From: Beggiatoa alba B18LD
GTDB lineage: Bacteria > Pseudomonadota > Gammaproteobacteria > Beggiatoales > Beggiatoaceae
Direction of reading: 5' to 3'
Length of the DNA stretch: 64,000 nt
Assembly: GCF_000245015.1 (NCBI RefSeq)
Contig: NZ_JH600070.1
Location: 2,543,588-2,607,587 of the forward strand
Made by a program: the position numbers and the translations under genes. The notes under the pieces were generated by a model. It saw only the letters and a program-made list of their open reading frames with translations, was not told the origin of the DNA and searched no databases. Positions 25,601-43,961 of the stretch are shown here, in pieces. The first letter of the stretch is position 1. The number at the start of each line of letters is the position of its first letter.

Positions 25601-25658
25601 AGAAGGCGATAAGCTAAAAGATGATATTACTTTGTTGGTTATCAAAAAATGTAAATAA
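19605..25658 (+). CDS. Giant signalling protein: Ser/Thr kinase - AAA ATPase - helical repeat - GAF - PAS - PAS - SpoIIE phosphatase
   Basis: 2017 residues. Order: protein kinase (about 1-275) with VVLKLLK Lys, IIHKDINPSN catalytic loop and IDFGIAS; AAA-type ATPase (about 305-640) with Walker A GDEGVGKTT and Walker B AIVLDDLQWAD; a long TPR-like helical region (about 700-1300); GAF (about 1330-1485); two PAS domains (about 1492-1610 and 1622-1740); a short coiled coil; and a PP2C/SpoIIE phosphatase (about 1782-2017) with EEVGGDYYDIL, GIGDVTGHGLESG and LYTDGVTEA. The kinase to GAF plan is that of multisensor kinases such as HstK-like proteins; here the usual histidine kinase end is replaced by a phosphatase. 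No membrane segment. Probably phosphorylates and dephosphorylates partner proteins in response to ligands. It begins after GGGGGAG. Confidence 0.93.
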   Translation: MLTLPGYRIDDQIYEGTQSIAYRATRVSDALPVVLKLLKSDYPSPLELAQYQREYDILRRLHSANLTNQESNIIQVYALEKYKNTLVMVLEDIAGVSLKEWLHNRELNLITFLFLAIKITQAVGEIHAEHIIHKDINPSNIVYNAETGQLKLIDFGIASVLPRENPALKNIEKLEGTLHYLSPEQTGRVNRPLDYRTDFYSLGVTLYEMLVGQLPFNTGDLLELIHAHIAKQPALPHTIRTDVPLVLSNVILCLLEKNAELRYQSAYGLQMDLTRCFEYCNRQEALATFELRQDDITTVLQIPEKLYGNSRAVIELLDAFERVSQGCTEMVLVSGDEGVGKTTVVNELYKPVLQQQGHFISGKFGQFQSTTPYTAILDVFGELVRQVLTESEAQLAKWKKRILQALGKNGQLIVDVIPEVALIIGEQPATEQNVGFLEAQNRFNRVFLSFMKVFCQPSHPLAIVLDDLQWADTASLKLLSMLLRDEETRYLLVIGVYRQHEVDELHPLRLTLDELRQSMTITLQITLQPLDLEAITQLLMDTLHADRQRVHPLAEIVLNKTDGNPLFIQQFVKTLHDEGLLSLNFQSSENGQRQPIWQWHLEAIEEASITDNVADLLVQKLQKLPEETQHLLSLAACLGNPFDVSIIAMLAGDEVLTTTQRLLPALEANLIAPLNGSHPNLFRFLHNRVQETAYNLLSNIAKQKNHVLIGHLLCKELGAEKTIEELFEITNHFNLGLPLITNTEDKVLVAELNLLAAKRAKTAAAYDSAFRYLSAALELFTPHAWQTHYSLILEITVEGTEVAYYIGDIDEMERLALRVLRYARTLLDKIRVYEVRIQAARSQGRFRDALNIARHVLRKLDIKLPDNPNKWRIWWAELRMKLTLTAGDRPNLLELPLMHQPEKLAAMRILNHATSAAYAAQPNLMPLIIFRLIQLSVDFGNTTVSAYAYATYGQRLCGTGFIDSGYQFGELAIQLSERLNKREFRTKTFFIVNAFIRHWRTPVRDILNPLRDVWQLGLEMGEFDFASLSMFARLAYAALIGESLETLEKEMSAYSQEIRQLRQVVAANLIDIYHQSILNLRGQLLENPSQLIGLVYNETEQVAFYEKHNNRTALYHNYFNKAILAYYFQEPYKAQDYIQQAGKYLNGTIGSVPFAFFHFYESLILLSIYPQVTPREQKSILHTVDSNQKKIQTWASFSPANQQHKYYLVAAERERALKHDKEAREYYDLAIHLAHEQGYLNEEALACELAGEFYLQRGLVKYAYACLRDAHYTYIRWGALAKAKELEARHSNLFTQRNSNNNTTTITTFITQQGSPNMLDFSSILKASQASASELDLSKLLKKLMQIVLENAGAERSLLVLEQNGHWVIEAEGSLNTEHVEILQDLPLENAALSIPITLVNYVIRVQDCVVLNDACNLGKFTRDPYIASQQIKSILCMPMLNKGALSGILYLENNLSTGVFTPERVEILSLLSNQMAISLDNARLYKTLGENEERLRIITDTTPIALSISRPEDGLILYANPRIESVFGLPPNTLINQYRTVDFYRNSQDREKVMGAFRRFGSVSNYEVEFRNVYNQTVWVALFVHPIRFSNQNVLLSAYYDITDIKNAEEERLRFTRALQESEERFRVIAETMPVPIFIIQPESGVILYANQQSSQTFGYDIPELVEHSILELYRTPNDQRNYISLYKQNKGKVKDYEVEFLRADNTTVWVAISTQQATYAGERVILAALHDITDRKRAEQEHIRLIEILRHNEQLASENARMGAELSVSRQLQRMLLPTDIELTQLDYLDIAAFMEPAEEVGGDYYDILQYGEHTLIGIGDVTGHGLESGVIMLMIQMAVRTLLETQLTSPEAFLPIINRAVYGNIQRMGSDKSLTLSLVDCYPSPLDSSLTIVRMTGQHEEVLLVRQTGQIERINTTTLGFPIGLEENIQDLVGYQEVILEIGDGLVLYTDGVTEALNAEKHQYGIKRLCDVISQHWQKSVEQISKTVIADVRDYLEGDKLKDDITLLVIKKCK

Positions 25659-25913
25659 GGTGAGTTTGGCGAGTTTTTTAAAAAGACAATCGCTTGTCTG
25701 AATCAGGATTCACAGGATTTTCAGGATTAGCACGACTGAAAAGCGTTATTCACATTAATTTTTTGGTTTTGCTCGTTACCAAGTTTCACTTGGTAATGCC
25801 TACTCGCCAAGCTCTGCTTGGCTTGTACTTGAACGCTTCAATCTTAAGTTTGCTTGTATTCGGCAAGCGGAGCTTGCAAGGCAGGCATTACCAAGCAGAG
25901 CTTGGTAACGAGC
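25659..25913. repeat. Inverted-repeat element, copy 3, interrupted by a 143-bp module
   Basis: Starts directly after the TAA of the giant gene (GGTGAGTTTGGCGAG) and holds the left arm GTCTGAATCAGGATTCACAG and the centre; then the 143-bp module takes over at 25771 and the right half of the element is absent. Confidence 0.8.
25771..25913 (+). repeat. 143-bp palindromic module, copy A
   Basis: Bounded by GCTCGTTACC and GGTAACGAGC, with inner hairpins (CCAAGCTCTGCTTGG, GCAAGCGGAGCTTGC). The reverse complement of this whole module occurs at 43764-43906 with only one base changed. Confidence 0.88.
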
Positions 25914-26142
25914 AAAAAAACCCCTCGAATTCGAGGGGTTTAAAATTGGGATTATTGAGCTTTTCCCAGATGCCAAGATATTCTATTGTGTTACGATTTC
26001 TCATCCAATTACCAATAACAGCACTTGTATCTTCGGTCTTATATTTAGCAATATCAGTAAGTAATATGTAATCAGTATTGTTTATTTTAACGACAACAAC
26101 ATCTGTATTATTGACATTTATTTTTGTCATTTCATTACTCAT
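25888..26142 (-). pseudogene. Truncated KilA-N domain protein
   Basis: The frame encodes 84 residues. The first 70 or so are the start of a KilA-N DNA-binding domain (YILLTDIAKYKTEDTSAVIG, NWMRNRNTIEYLGIWEKLN, PNFKPLEFEGF), a domain of large DNA viruses, phages and bacterial mobile-element proteins that normally continues for another 60-100 residues. Here the frame runs into the 143-bp module and stops after CSLPSSAW, residues coded by the module's end. At the junction the coding sequence contains a perfect palindrome CCCCTCGAATTCGAGGGG followed by seven Ts, a terminator on the coding strand. It is a remnant or a short functional derivative; truncation is more likely. Confidence 0.72.
25922..25939. 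terminator. Palindromic terminator inside the KilA-N remnant
   Basis: CCCCTCGAATTCGAGGGG is a perfect 18-base palindrome, followed by TTT on the plus strand and TTTTTTT on the minus strand. On the minus strand it stops transcripts just before the truncated frame ends. Confidence 0.6.
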
Positions 26143-26203: not shown

Positions 26204-26518
26204 TTAACCTGAGTTCGGCGAGTTTTATAAAATAAAACAGAGACCTGCTAGGTTTTAAAAACCTAGCAGGTCTGTCGGAACGTGCGAAAAGAGTTGAAGG
26301 ACTGGCAGAGATTATTCTCTTGTTTTTCATCTGGATTCACCAGACAAGATTAAAACATTGTCTGAATCAGGATTTTCAGGATTAACAGAATTAAAAAGCA
26401 TGATTCACCTTAATTTTTTGGTTTAAGGGTTTTAAATTCTGCTAATTCTGAAAATTCTGTGAATTCTGATTCAGACAAACGCTTGTCTTTTTAAAAGAAT
26501 CTCGCCGAACTCAGGTTA
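26204..26518. repeat. Inverted-repeat element, copy 4 (best-preserved ends)
   Basis: TTAACCTGAGTTCGGCGAG at 26204-26222 matches CTCGCCGAACTCAGGTTA at 26501-26518 as terminal inverted repeats. Inside: the 33-bp palindrome (26241-26273), the CTGTCGGAACGTGCGAAAAG module, GGACTGGCAGAGATTATTC (shared with copy 6), the arm GTCTGAATCAGGATTTTCAG and the facing arm ending ATTCAGACA. Both flanks carry TATTTAA, a possible target-site duplication, though the flanks are AT-rich. Confidence 0.85.
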
Positions 26519-42476: not shown

Positions 42477-42514
42477 TTTACTCGTTACCAAGCTCTGCTT
42501 CGTAACGAGCAATC
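42477..42514. repeat. Solo end of the 143-bp module
   Basis: TTTACTCGTTACCAAGCTC then TGCTTCGTAACGAGCAA: the outer hairpin of the 143-bp module found at 25.8 and 43.8 kb, without its interior. It lies just upstream of the CHAT gene start. Confidence 0.7.
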
Positions 42515-42624
42515 AACTGTTTTATTTATGAAATATCGCCGAGATCAGGTTAAATTTAAATCGTTTTATAGTGCGTTTACTATATATCAAAATTTTCACC
42601 TAGAAAAATGAAACGACTTGTATA

Positions 42625-42729: not shown

Positions 42730-43053
42730 ATGGCACTAATATTTTACGATAGCCCATTTCATGTCACGCATGATGAAGAAACCGCGAACAAAATGGTCAT
42801 AAAAATGGACTTGTCCATCATGCTCATGGACTTAATTGAAAAGCAAAAGTGGACACAAGCCGAAGCGGCTGAAAAATTGGGCGTGAAGCAATCTCGCATA
42901 TCAGATTTAATGAACTCAAAAATTGAAAAGTTCACTATCGATGCAATGTTCGATATGTTGGATAAGTTGGGTTTTAAAGTTAGTTGGTCTATGCCATCGC
43001 AACAGAAGGCTACGATGGTCATCAAAAAAGCGAAACAGCCTGCTAAGATTTAA
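42730..43053 (+). CDS. Xre-family antitoxin-like protein (Ata/HigA type)
   Basis: 107 residues. A helix-turn-helix of the COG5606/HTH_37 type: SIMLMDLIEKQKWTQAEAA, EKLGVKQSRISDLMNSKIEK and FTIDAMFDMLDKLGFKVSW. Such proteins neutralise Gp49-like (DUF891) toxins and repress their own promoter. Its presumed toxin gene lies next to it but on the opposite strand: the two genes converge and overlap by 4 bases. The start is ATG 42730 with a weak GAGAAAG ahead. Confidence 0.88.
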   Translation: MALIFYDSPFHVTHDEETANKMVIKMDLSIMLMDLIEKQKWTQAEAAEKLGVKQSRISDLMNSKIEKFTIDAMFDMLDKLGFKVSWSMPSQQKATMVIKKAKQPAKI

Positions 43054-43388
43054 TTTCCTCTTAATTCTGCCAATAAGTCTTTTAAGCATTGTTCTGCAAC
43101 TTTCATAGCCTGCCTATCAACACCATTGGTGGTTTTGGTGAAGGCATGTAACACGATGACCGAATCCAAATATTTTGTTACATAAACGCAGCGATAAGCA
43201 GGACGACCATTCTTTTTTAATTCAATCACGCCCTGCCCCACGCTGTCTAGGTATTTGATAGGCAGTACAGGTGCTTGACCAAATTGAATTTTTCTTAAAT
43301 CCTTGCCGAATTCATCTTGAATTTCTGCGGGCAAATCTTTGTATTCTTTTTCAGCCGCATCACTGACAAATGCAAATTTTTTGCTCAT
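43050..43388 (-). CDS. Gp49-like (DUF891) RelE/HigB-superfamily toxin
   Basis: 112 residues. Family features: FAFVSDAAEKEYKDLPAEIQ, the phage-related Gp49 pattern VGQGVIELKKNGRPAYRCVYV and VIVLHAFTKTTNGVD, which place it with RelE-fold mRNA-cleaving toxins (COG4679). AAGG lies 6 bases before the ATG. Toxin and antitoxin in this family are normally co-directional, toxin first; here they are convergent and share the TTAA that holds both stop codons. The upstream region is within 50 bases of the end of repeat element 8. Confidence 0.88.
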   Translation of the reverse strand: MSKKFAFVSDAAEKEYKDLPAEIQDEFGKDLRKIQFGQAPVLPIKYLDSVGQGVIELKKNGRPAYRCVYVTKYLDSVIVLHAFTKTTNGVDRQAMKVAEQCLKDLLAELRGN

Positions 43389-43439
43389 TTTAAACCTTCT
43401 CGACGAGAGAGTTGTTTTCTCTTAACTTTATGTAAAACA

Positions 43440-43944
43440 ACCTGAGTTCTGCGAGTTTCTGTTAAAAAGACAAGCGTTTGTCTGAATCAAGATTAGCAGG
43501 ATTTAAAAGAGTCATTCACGTTAGTTTTTTTGTTTGAGGGATTTAAATCCTATCAATCTATCTTGACTCAAACAATGTTTTAATCTTGTTTGGTCAACCC
43601 TTTTTGCGTGTTCCGACAGACCTGCTAGGTTTTGAAAACCTAGCAGGTCTTTTTTTGTCTGAATCAGAATTCACAGAATTTTCAGAATTAGCAGAATTAA
43701 AAACAATTAAAAACATAATTTTTTTATTCTTTTAATTTTCCTGTTTTTTTAATTCTGAAAATTGCTCGTTACAAAGCTCTGCTTGGTAATGCCTGCCTTG
43801 CAAGCTCCGCTTGCCGAATACAAGCAAACTTAAGATTGAAGCGTTCAAGTACAAGCCAAGCAGAGCTTGGCGAGTAGGCATTACCAAGTGAAACTTGGTA
43901 ACGAGCAAATGCTTATTTTTTAAACAATCTCGCCGAACTCAGGT
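43440..43944. repeat. Inverted-repeat element, copy 8 (largest), with nested 143-bp module
   Basis: Terminal repeats ACCTGAGTTCTGCGAG at 43440 and CTCGCCGAACTCAGGTTA at 43930-43947. Inside: the arm TTTGTCTGAATCAAG, TGCGTGTTCCGACAG, the 33-bp palindrome at 43618-43650 followed by TTTTTTTG, a second arm GTCTGAATCAGAATTCACAG, and the 143-bp module. It contains two merged copies of the element. Confidence 0.85.
43764..43906 (-). repeat. 143-bp palindromic module, copy B
   Basis: Reverse complement of the module at 25771-25913, identical over 143 bases but for one position (ACAAAGC here against ACCAAGC). It splits the right arm of repeat element 8. Confidence 0.88.
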
Positions 43945-43961
43945 TATGACGCTAAAACGAT

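Follow-up and report, generated by a model that had tools for sequence, protein, structure and literature searches.

A REP-like hairpin dimer in Beggiatoa alba and its association with miniature IS630 elements in a sister species

The stretch of Beggiatoa alba B18LD analysed here – 64,000 nucleotides, referred to below as the window – is part of contig C2 of a 4.27-Mb genome, and contains two copies of a 143-bp module in opposite orientations. Copy A (25771-25913, plus strand) consists of two inverted double-hairpin arms and a central spacer, and differs from the reverse complement of 43764-43906 (copy B, minus strand) at one of 143 bases, module position 134, which is G in A and T in B. In a self-BLAST of the window 25768-25915 aligns to 43909-43762 on the opposite strand at 99.3%, which together with the direct comparison bears out the single-base difference reported in the first-pass annotation. 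Both copies start with GCTCGTTACC and finish with GTAACGAGC, and are flanked by T-rich DNA on the left and by A-rich DNA on the right; the GCTCGTTACC ends and inner hairpins described earlier are both present. A repeat also lies where a solo end pair had been placed, at 42477-42514, but it is a single 31-bp outer hairpin at 42480-42510 (strand undefined), probably a derivative of the module without the inner part. Further solo hairpins are found at other places of the window genome.

The two copies had been described as nested in host elements, a repeat within a repeat, and this is right for B and half right for A. Copy B lies within a miniature element (43439-43945, minus strand) with host ends on both sides, inverted and located at 43439-43468 and 43916-43945. 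At copy A host sequence is present on the left only, as a one-sided repeat fragment (25656-25769, plus strand) with the end TAAGGTGAGTTTGGCGAG that stops at the module; paralogous host copies run on past this stop. To the right is a truncated KilA-N gene (25888-26142, minus strand) whose frame runs into the module and which matches only positions 2-58 of 107 of PF04383. Because the host fragment ends at the module on one side and the KilA-N gene is cut at it on the other, copy A lies at a junction and not inside an intact host. The host arms are, as claimed, much less conserved than the module, with the flanks of A and B matching only in scattered 20-75 bp pieces at 80-97%. The nesting is nonetheless the most informative part of the original observation, because the module recurs inside IS630-derived elements in a sister genome (see below).

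A host end (TAACCTGATCTCGGCGAT..; 42511-42552, minus strand) also abuts the solo hairpin, and is like the one beside L096 and L098. The window genome contains 217 exact matches to the host end motif CCTGAGTTCNGCGAG, and none to the reversed pattern; an apparent strand bias among the sites listed was dropped, as a minus-strand site exists at 43931-43945. Host elements of the window have inverted ends, and host-end matches are found near some IS630 genes of the same genome, with the IS630 assignment itself covering the sister-genome carriers only. The intergenic mosaics of the region also contain a recurrent perfect palindrome, AGACCTGCTAGGTTTT-N-AAAACCTAGCAGGTCT (e.g. 26241-26273 and 43618-43650). 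Near module B are adjacent, convergent HTH_37 and Gp49-like genes (42730-43053 and 43050-43388), which we take to be a toxin-antitoxin-like pair.

The structure of the module was analysed in an alignment of 27 modules from eight genomes (G000, G001, G003, G016, G021, G022, G024 and G027). Local pairing covaries across these modules in all four hairpins, which in copy A are the outer hairpins H1 (25776-25796) and H4 (25888-25908) and the inner hairpins H2 (25806-25822) and H3 (25863-25877), all given on the plus strand. When the four hairpins are scored with a closing helix, 95.5% of 913 cells are paired and 13 pairs are changed on both sides; the local covariation score is 0.282 against a shuffled mean of 0.103 (0 of 500 shuffles reach it), and a shift in register of 1-3 columns reduces the paired cells to 26-45%. 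Pairing between the arms scores 0.084 against 0.104 for shuffled alignments (495 of 500 shuffles reach it), which rules out a single long cross-arm hairpin as the conserved structure. Since local pairing covaries and between-arm pairing does not, what is conserved is a set of individual hairpins, placed in two inverted arms in the manner of REP dimers, and not a long palindrome. This upkeep of hairpins by local compensatory change is that expected generally of REP-like hairpin dimers.

In copy A the H1 and H4 stems are TTACCAAG..CTTGGTAA, and the H1 stem is immediately preceded by CTCG in 25 of the 27 aligned modules and by CTCT in the other two. Arms occur singly as well (L114 and L120), and one family member has five direct tandem copies of a 59-bp arm (L118:2089-2370). 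A second arm family (CTCGTTCCCAA.., with a TTCGG(A/G)AAA tail) was seen in the window genome and a family member (L104:227-2020 and L117:2133-2334), and forms a two-arm element of about 200 bp in L117 and apparently also at the first L104 site. An autonomous element between the arms in L104 was considered and rejected, the open reading frames there looking, when read by eye, like unrelated genes.

A count of genomic copies – the check proposed with the first-pass annotation – gave nine of at least 104 bp in the window genome, plus shorter hairpin pieces. Their lengths are 143, 143, 143, 142, 141, 116, 132, 106 and 104 bp, with identities, in the same order, of 100, 99, 99, 96, 93, 94, 85, 92 and 88%. 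The third near-identical copy is located at C2:199552-199694, 2.37 Mb from A on the contig. Relative to A, G134T is the only change in copy B and G51A the only one in the third copy, the fourth has six and the fifth has ten, and at both private-change sites A carries the base common to the other young copies. Copies A and B are therefore two of the three youngest in this genome, and because these three differ by private changes only, recent spread accounts for the identity of A and B. It had been proposed that the module either moved recently or is kept by conversion, and of these the recent movement is supported, so that no conversion between A and B has to be invoked. The copy series, judged from its sequences, looks like a recent burst in which the A-B pair is not special, and the more diverged copies, down to 85%, contradict the special standing given to the pair earlier. 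Mutual gene conversion as the cause of the near-identity of A and B is extremely unlikely, for despite their one difference in 143 bases between more diverged flanks, a copy 2.37 Mb off is equally close and differs by private changes only. An assembly artefact is also unlikely, the module copies having different flanks. The opposed copies might drive inversion of the 18 kb between them, as had been suggested; a 19.9-kb query spanning the A-B region matched at scattered places in the sister genome.

Searches with the module at E 0.01 or better gave matches in 23 of 95 genomes, including 23 of 42 in its own family and 0 of 53 in other families of the class; many of the matches in these 23 genomes are single arms. 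A stricter arm pattern was present in 13 of 369 genomes of the class, and its reversed control was never found. No match to the module was found in a plasmid collection. No paper in the open-licence literature contained the exact strings of the hairpin, and none described such a repeat among the RAYT, REPIN, hairpin and Beggiatoa matches listed (titles and abstract starts). In genome G014 arms are embedded in repeated miniature elements with another terminal repeat, GAGGTTCTTTTACAGCC (L121:1830-2430).

REP-like hairpin dimers, the kind to which the module belongs, are already known. In the scheme of Di Nocera et al. (2013, PMC3733652), as far as the sections drawn on here go, the module looks most like the CGTC-tagged REPs, the tag apart, a group that includes Neisseria dRS3 and Rickettsia RPE-4/6. 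These sections describe, as in the module, short hairpins whose stems start with A-T pairs and whose loop is about 5 nt, mostly arranged as head-to-head dimers, without a dedicated transposase, and with spacers in which two more stem-loops can occur; some of the dimers are also located inside other palindromes. H1 and H4 of the module have the 8-9 bp stem, two initial A-T pairs and loop of 4-5 nt of this group, with some relatives having another first pair, and the module forms head-to-head dimers with no associated transposase, an association evaluated for Y1 transposases only. It lacks the unpaired CGTC, TGTC or CCTC beside the stem, having CTCG instead, its tail is TGCC rather than CCA, and each of its arms has a second hairpin, unlike the CGTC REPs in those sections. 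Carriage in IS630 MITEs and long duplications, both described below for the module, do not appear in the sections of PMC3733652 concerned with CGTC REPs that are cited here.

The module also shares with REPINs, in the relevant parts of PMC3116915 and PMC2817692, the replication of two inverted hairpin units with singlets as derivatives, and differs from them in lacking a GTAG-type tag, in that no RAYT association was found in the loci searched, and in having long duplications in the sister genome. Its REPIN-like architecture, with two inverted REP-like arms plus solo units, would suit mobilisation by a RAYT (Y1 REP transposase), as REPINs are moved, but this was tested and is unsupported, and we regard it as very unlikely. 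No cognate RAYT flanked by the same repeat was found, with 0 arms in 30 PF01797 loci (30 of 76 matches; 89,115 bases), while all 28 loci known to hold a module gave an arm with the same pattern. The window genome has a single PF01797 gene, surrounded by a different repeat, TAGGGTGGAATA.., with no arm nearby, and although PF01797 is present in 15 of 20 other module-bearing family genomes, it is absent from five (the drafts G006, G021, G024, G031 and G036). Moreover, known IS200/IS605 members make no larger target duplications, as stated in the part of PMC2817692 used here. The TAGGGTGGAATA.. hairpins around the PF01797 gene (L027) themselves resemble a conventional GTAG-type REP system.

Another reading is that the module is kept for a role in RNA, as an mRNA stabiliser or terminator, and that its spread is secondary. 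Compensatory changes that conserve hairpins are also expected of RNA, but the stem is followed by A-rich, not T-rich, DNA on both strands in nearly all copies listed, so the module is not a simple intrinsic terminator. With flanks that vary from copy to copy, and no Rfam family matching the module at the curated cut-off, we consider such a role very improbable.

The genome of a sister species in the same genus (G001) has the module at 25 places and additionally at L203 and L226, giving 27. An IS630 end is located beside the module at 22 of these 27 places, and is absent at five (L089, L185, L190 and two in L087). The full-length element in this genome is 880 bp, with matches to HTH_Tnp_IS630 (6.1e-19) and DDE_3 (1e-33) and a score of 102 bits with the NCBIfam IS630 profile, for which the cut-off is 100. 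In the miniature carriers the module replaces approximately bases 69-815 of the 880-bp element, and three kinds of unit are present: the module enclosed by both IS630 ends, the module next to one end, and the bare module. Eleven units have both terminal repeats in a genome with a transposase of the family, and the module in the sister genome is thus carried in IS630 MITEs. The IS630 ends start and finish with TATA, so that TA repeats at these carriers abut by construction, and the carriers do not use the module arms as their own ends. The units with both ends are like IS630/Tc1-type MITEs in general, including the lack of a long duplication, but their cargo is a repeat in its own right, found elsewhere by itself or next to a single IS630 end, and then in insertions with long duplications. 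In all eight units with a left end and the module the IS630 left end is whole. The bare modules L089 and L190 are bounded by module ends alone, and lack the TA duplication and terminal repeats of an IS630 MITE.

Direct duplications of about 20-81 bp are present at the unit ends in 10 of the 14 sister-genome units with at least one exposed module end. Their lengths by script or BLAST are 42-52 bp at L088, 44 at L089, 81 at L092, 35-38 at L183, 42-44 at L186, 25-29 at L187, 21 at L190, 33 at L192, 19-21 at L194 and 34 at L226. Nine were found by script, and the tenth, at L192, is a 33-bp repeat interrupted by another nested miniature element; no duplication was found at L181, L185 or either copy in L087 (4 of 14). 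The script tolerated gaps of up to 8 bases at units and controls, and of up to 3 at random positions, and the gaps found were 0-5, seven of nine being 0-1 and those at L088 and L226 being 5; at a gap of 3 or less the count is 7 of 14. Inspection of L226 by eye places seven bases between module and repeat. Four cases are outside these counts: L184 (the same places as L087), L189 (ends not definable), the second module in L188 (both IS630 ends), and L225 (a left end and a solo hairpin, with only a 15-bp match 276 bp away).

Duplications were absent from the controls in the same genome, with 0 of 11 units bounded by both IS630 ends having a flank duplication (a match at L188 being a tandem right end) and 0 of 10 full IS630 copies having abutting ones; at random positions the count was 6 of 3000 with a gap of 3 or less. 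None of the nine module copies in the window genome has an abutting long duplication, and a 47-bp repeat at L096 (89%) is 28-41 bp from the module and within repeated DNA. Nor was a duplication found at 25 modules with definable ends in 37 loci of other family genomes; the abutting duplications are known from one genome. No empty site was found, the single unit tested (L186) having non-syntenic flanks. Unusually long target duplications are also a feature of IS1202-type insertion sequences, at 16-28 bp in the portion of PMC10132070 considered; these encode a transposase, whereas the module has no gene and a duplication that is variable, at about 20-81 bp.

Units with a left end and the module have the order flank, repeat, whole IS630 left end, module, repeat, flank. 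L092 is the sole unit of its kind with a right end, and has the 81-bp duplication. Where the boundary is readable the duplicated sequence starts with A at the right module end and finishes with T at the left, which is a weak clue, boundary placement being free. One of the ten full IS630 copies, which contains no module (L124:727-1800), occupies the first copy of a tandemly duplicated flank segment of about 92 bp; the 19 bp to the left of the element recur 71 bp past its right end, followed by the same 71 bp and more. Long local duplications thus arise also without the module.

The family, its structure, the IS630 association and the long duplications of the sister genome are shown by the data, and are consistent with a REP-like dimer, with no RAYT partner found, that spreads mainly as IS630 cargo in the sister species and whose own ends are usable as an insertion terminus, a reading that we judge to be evenly balanced between right and wrong. 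The module consists of two REP-like double hairpins joined head to head, and can be classed as a palindromic repeat of REPIN-like form with a CTCG tag; in the sister species it would spread mainly as cargo of miniature IS630 elements, in place of the transposase interior. It may also use its hairpin-bounded ends for insertion, either by itself or paired with one IS630 end, and insertion at a new site would leave a direct duplication of variable length, about 20-81 bp. The duplications would be target-site duplications made at module insertion, with a transposase, perhaps that of IS630, joining the module end. The module end would join the opposite strand at a distance of about 20-50 bp (81 bp in L092) from the site joined by the IS630 end. 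Copies A and B, whose carriers have inverted ends, may behave as the sister-genome units do.

The strongest alternative has no transposase acting on the module end. A three-part element would insert normally, and a template switch during repair or replication would follow, in which the growing strand leaves the template at the hairpin's base, the hairpin being very stable, and continues on an empty sister chromosome some 20-81 bp back, so that one IS630 end is replaced by a copy of the flank. This gives the same product, with the surviving IS630 end whole, and L124 has the expected pattern without a module, with a switch 71 bp beyond the element end. The hairpin should also be stable, as the 143-nt strand of the module is predicted to fold at about -79 kcal/mol (RNA parameters). 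At L226 the short sequence that separates the module from the duplication starts like the right end of IS630, and the seven bases in between suit repair synthesis. Against it are the bare modules L089 and L190, which carry their duplications of 44 and 21 bp with no IS630 end, so that no such end is required, and the absence of duplications from all 11 units with both ends, although switching at the second end might be infrequent. We regard the template switch as possible, if somewhat short of an even chance.

On account of the bare modules and the clean both-ended control we lean instead, by a narrow margin, towards use of the module end as an insertion terminus. The fully specified form of this proposal – that hairpin ends substitute for a transposon end, the IS630 transposase or another host enzyme joining one or no IS630 end plus a module end to sites about 20-81 bp apart on opposite strands – is put forward with reserve, as it is rather doubtful as a whole.

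What is new here is the possible swap of a transposon end for a hairpin end, with long and variable duplications. The movement of REPs that have no RAYT partner is stated as an open question in the abstract of PMC3733652, and end substitution, if true, would be a route by which such REPs spread. The sister genome provides a natural experiment, in which the module with both IS630 ends (0 of 11 with long duplications) can be compared with the module that has one or none (10 of 14), and the question of end substitution is testable with one transposase gene and a reporter plasmid. The composite units suggest how non-autonomous elements may gain new ends.
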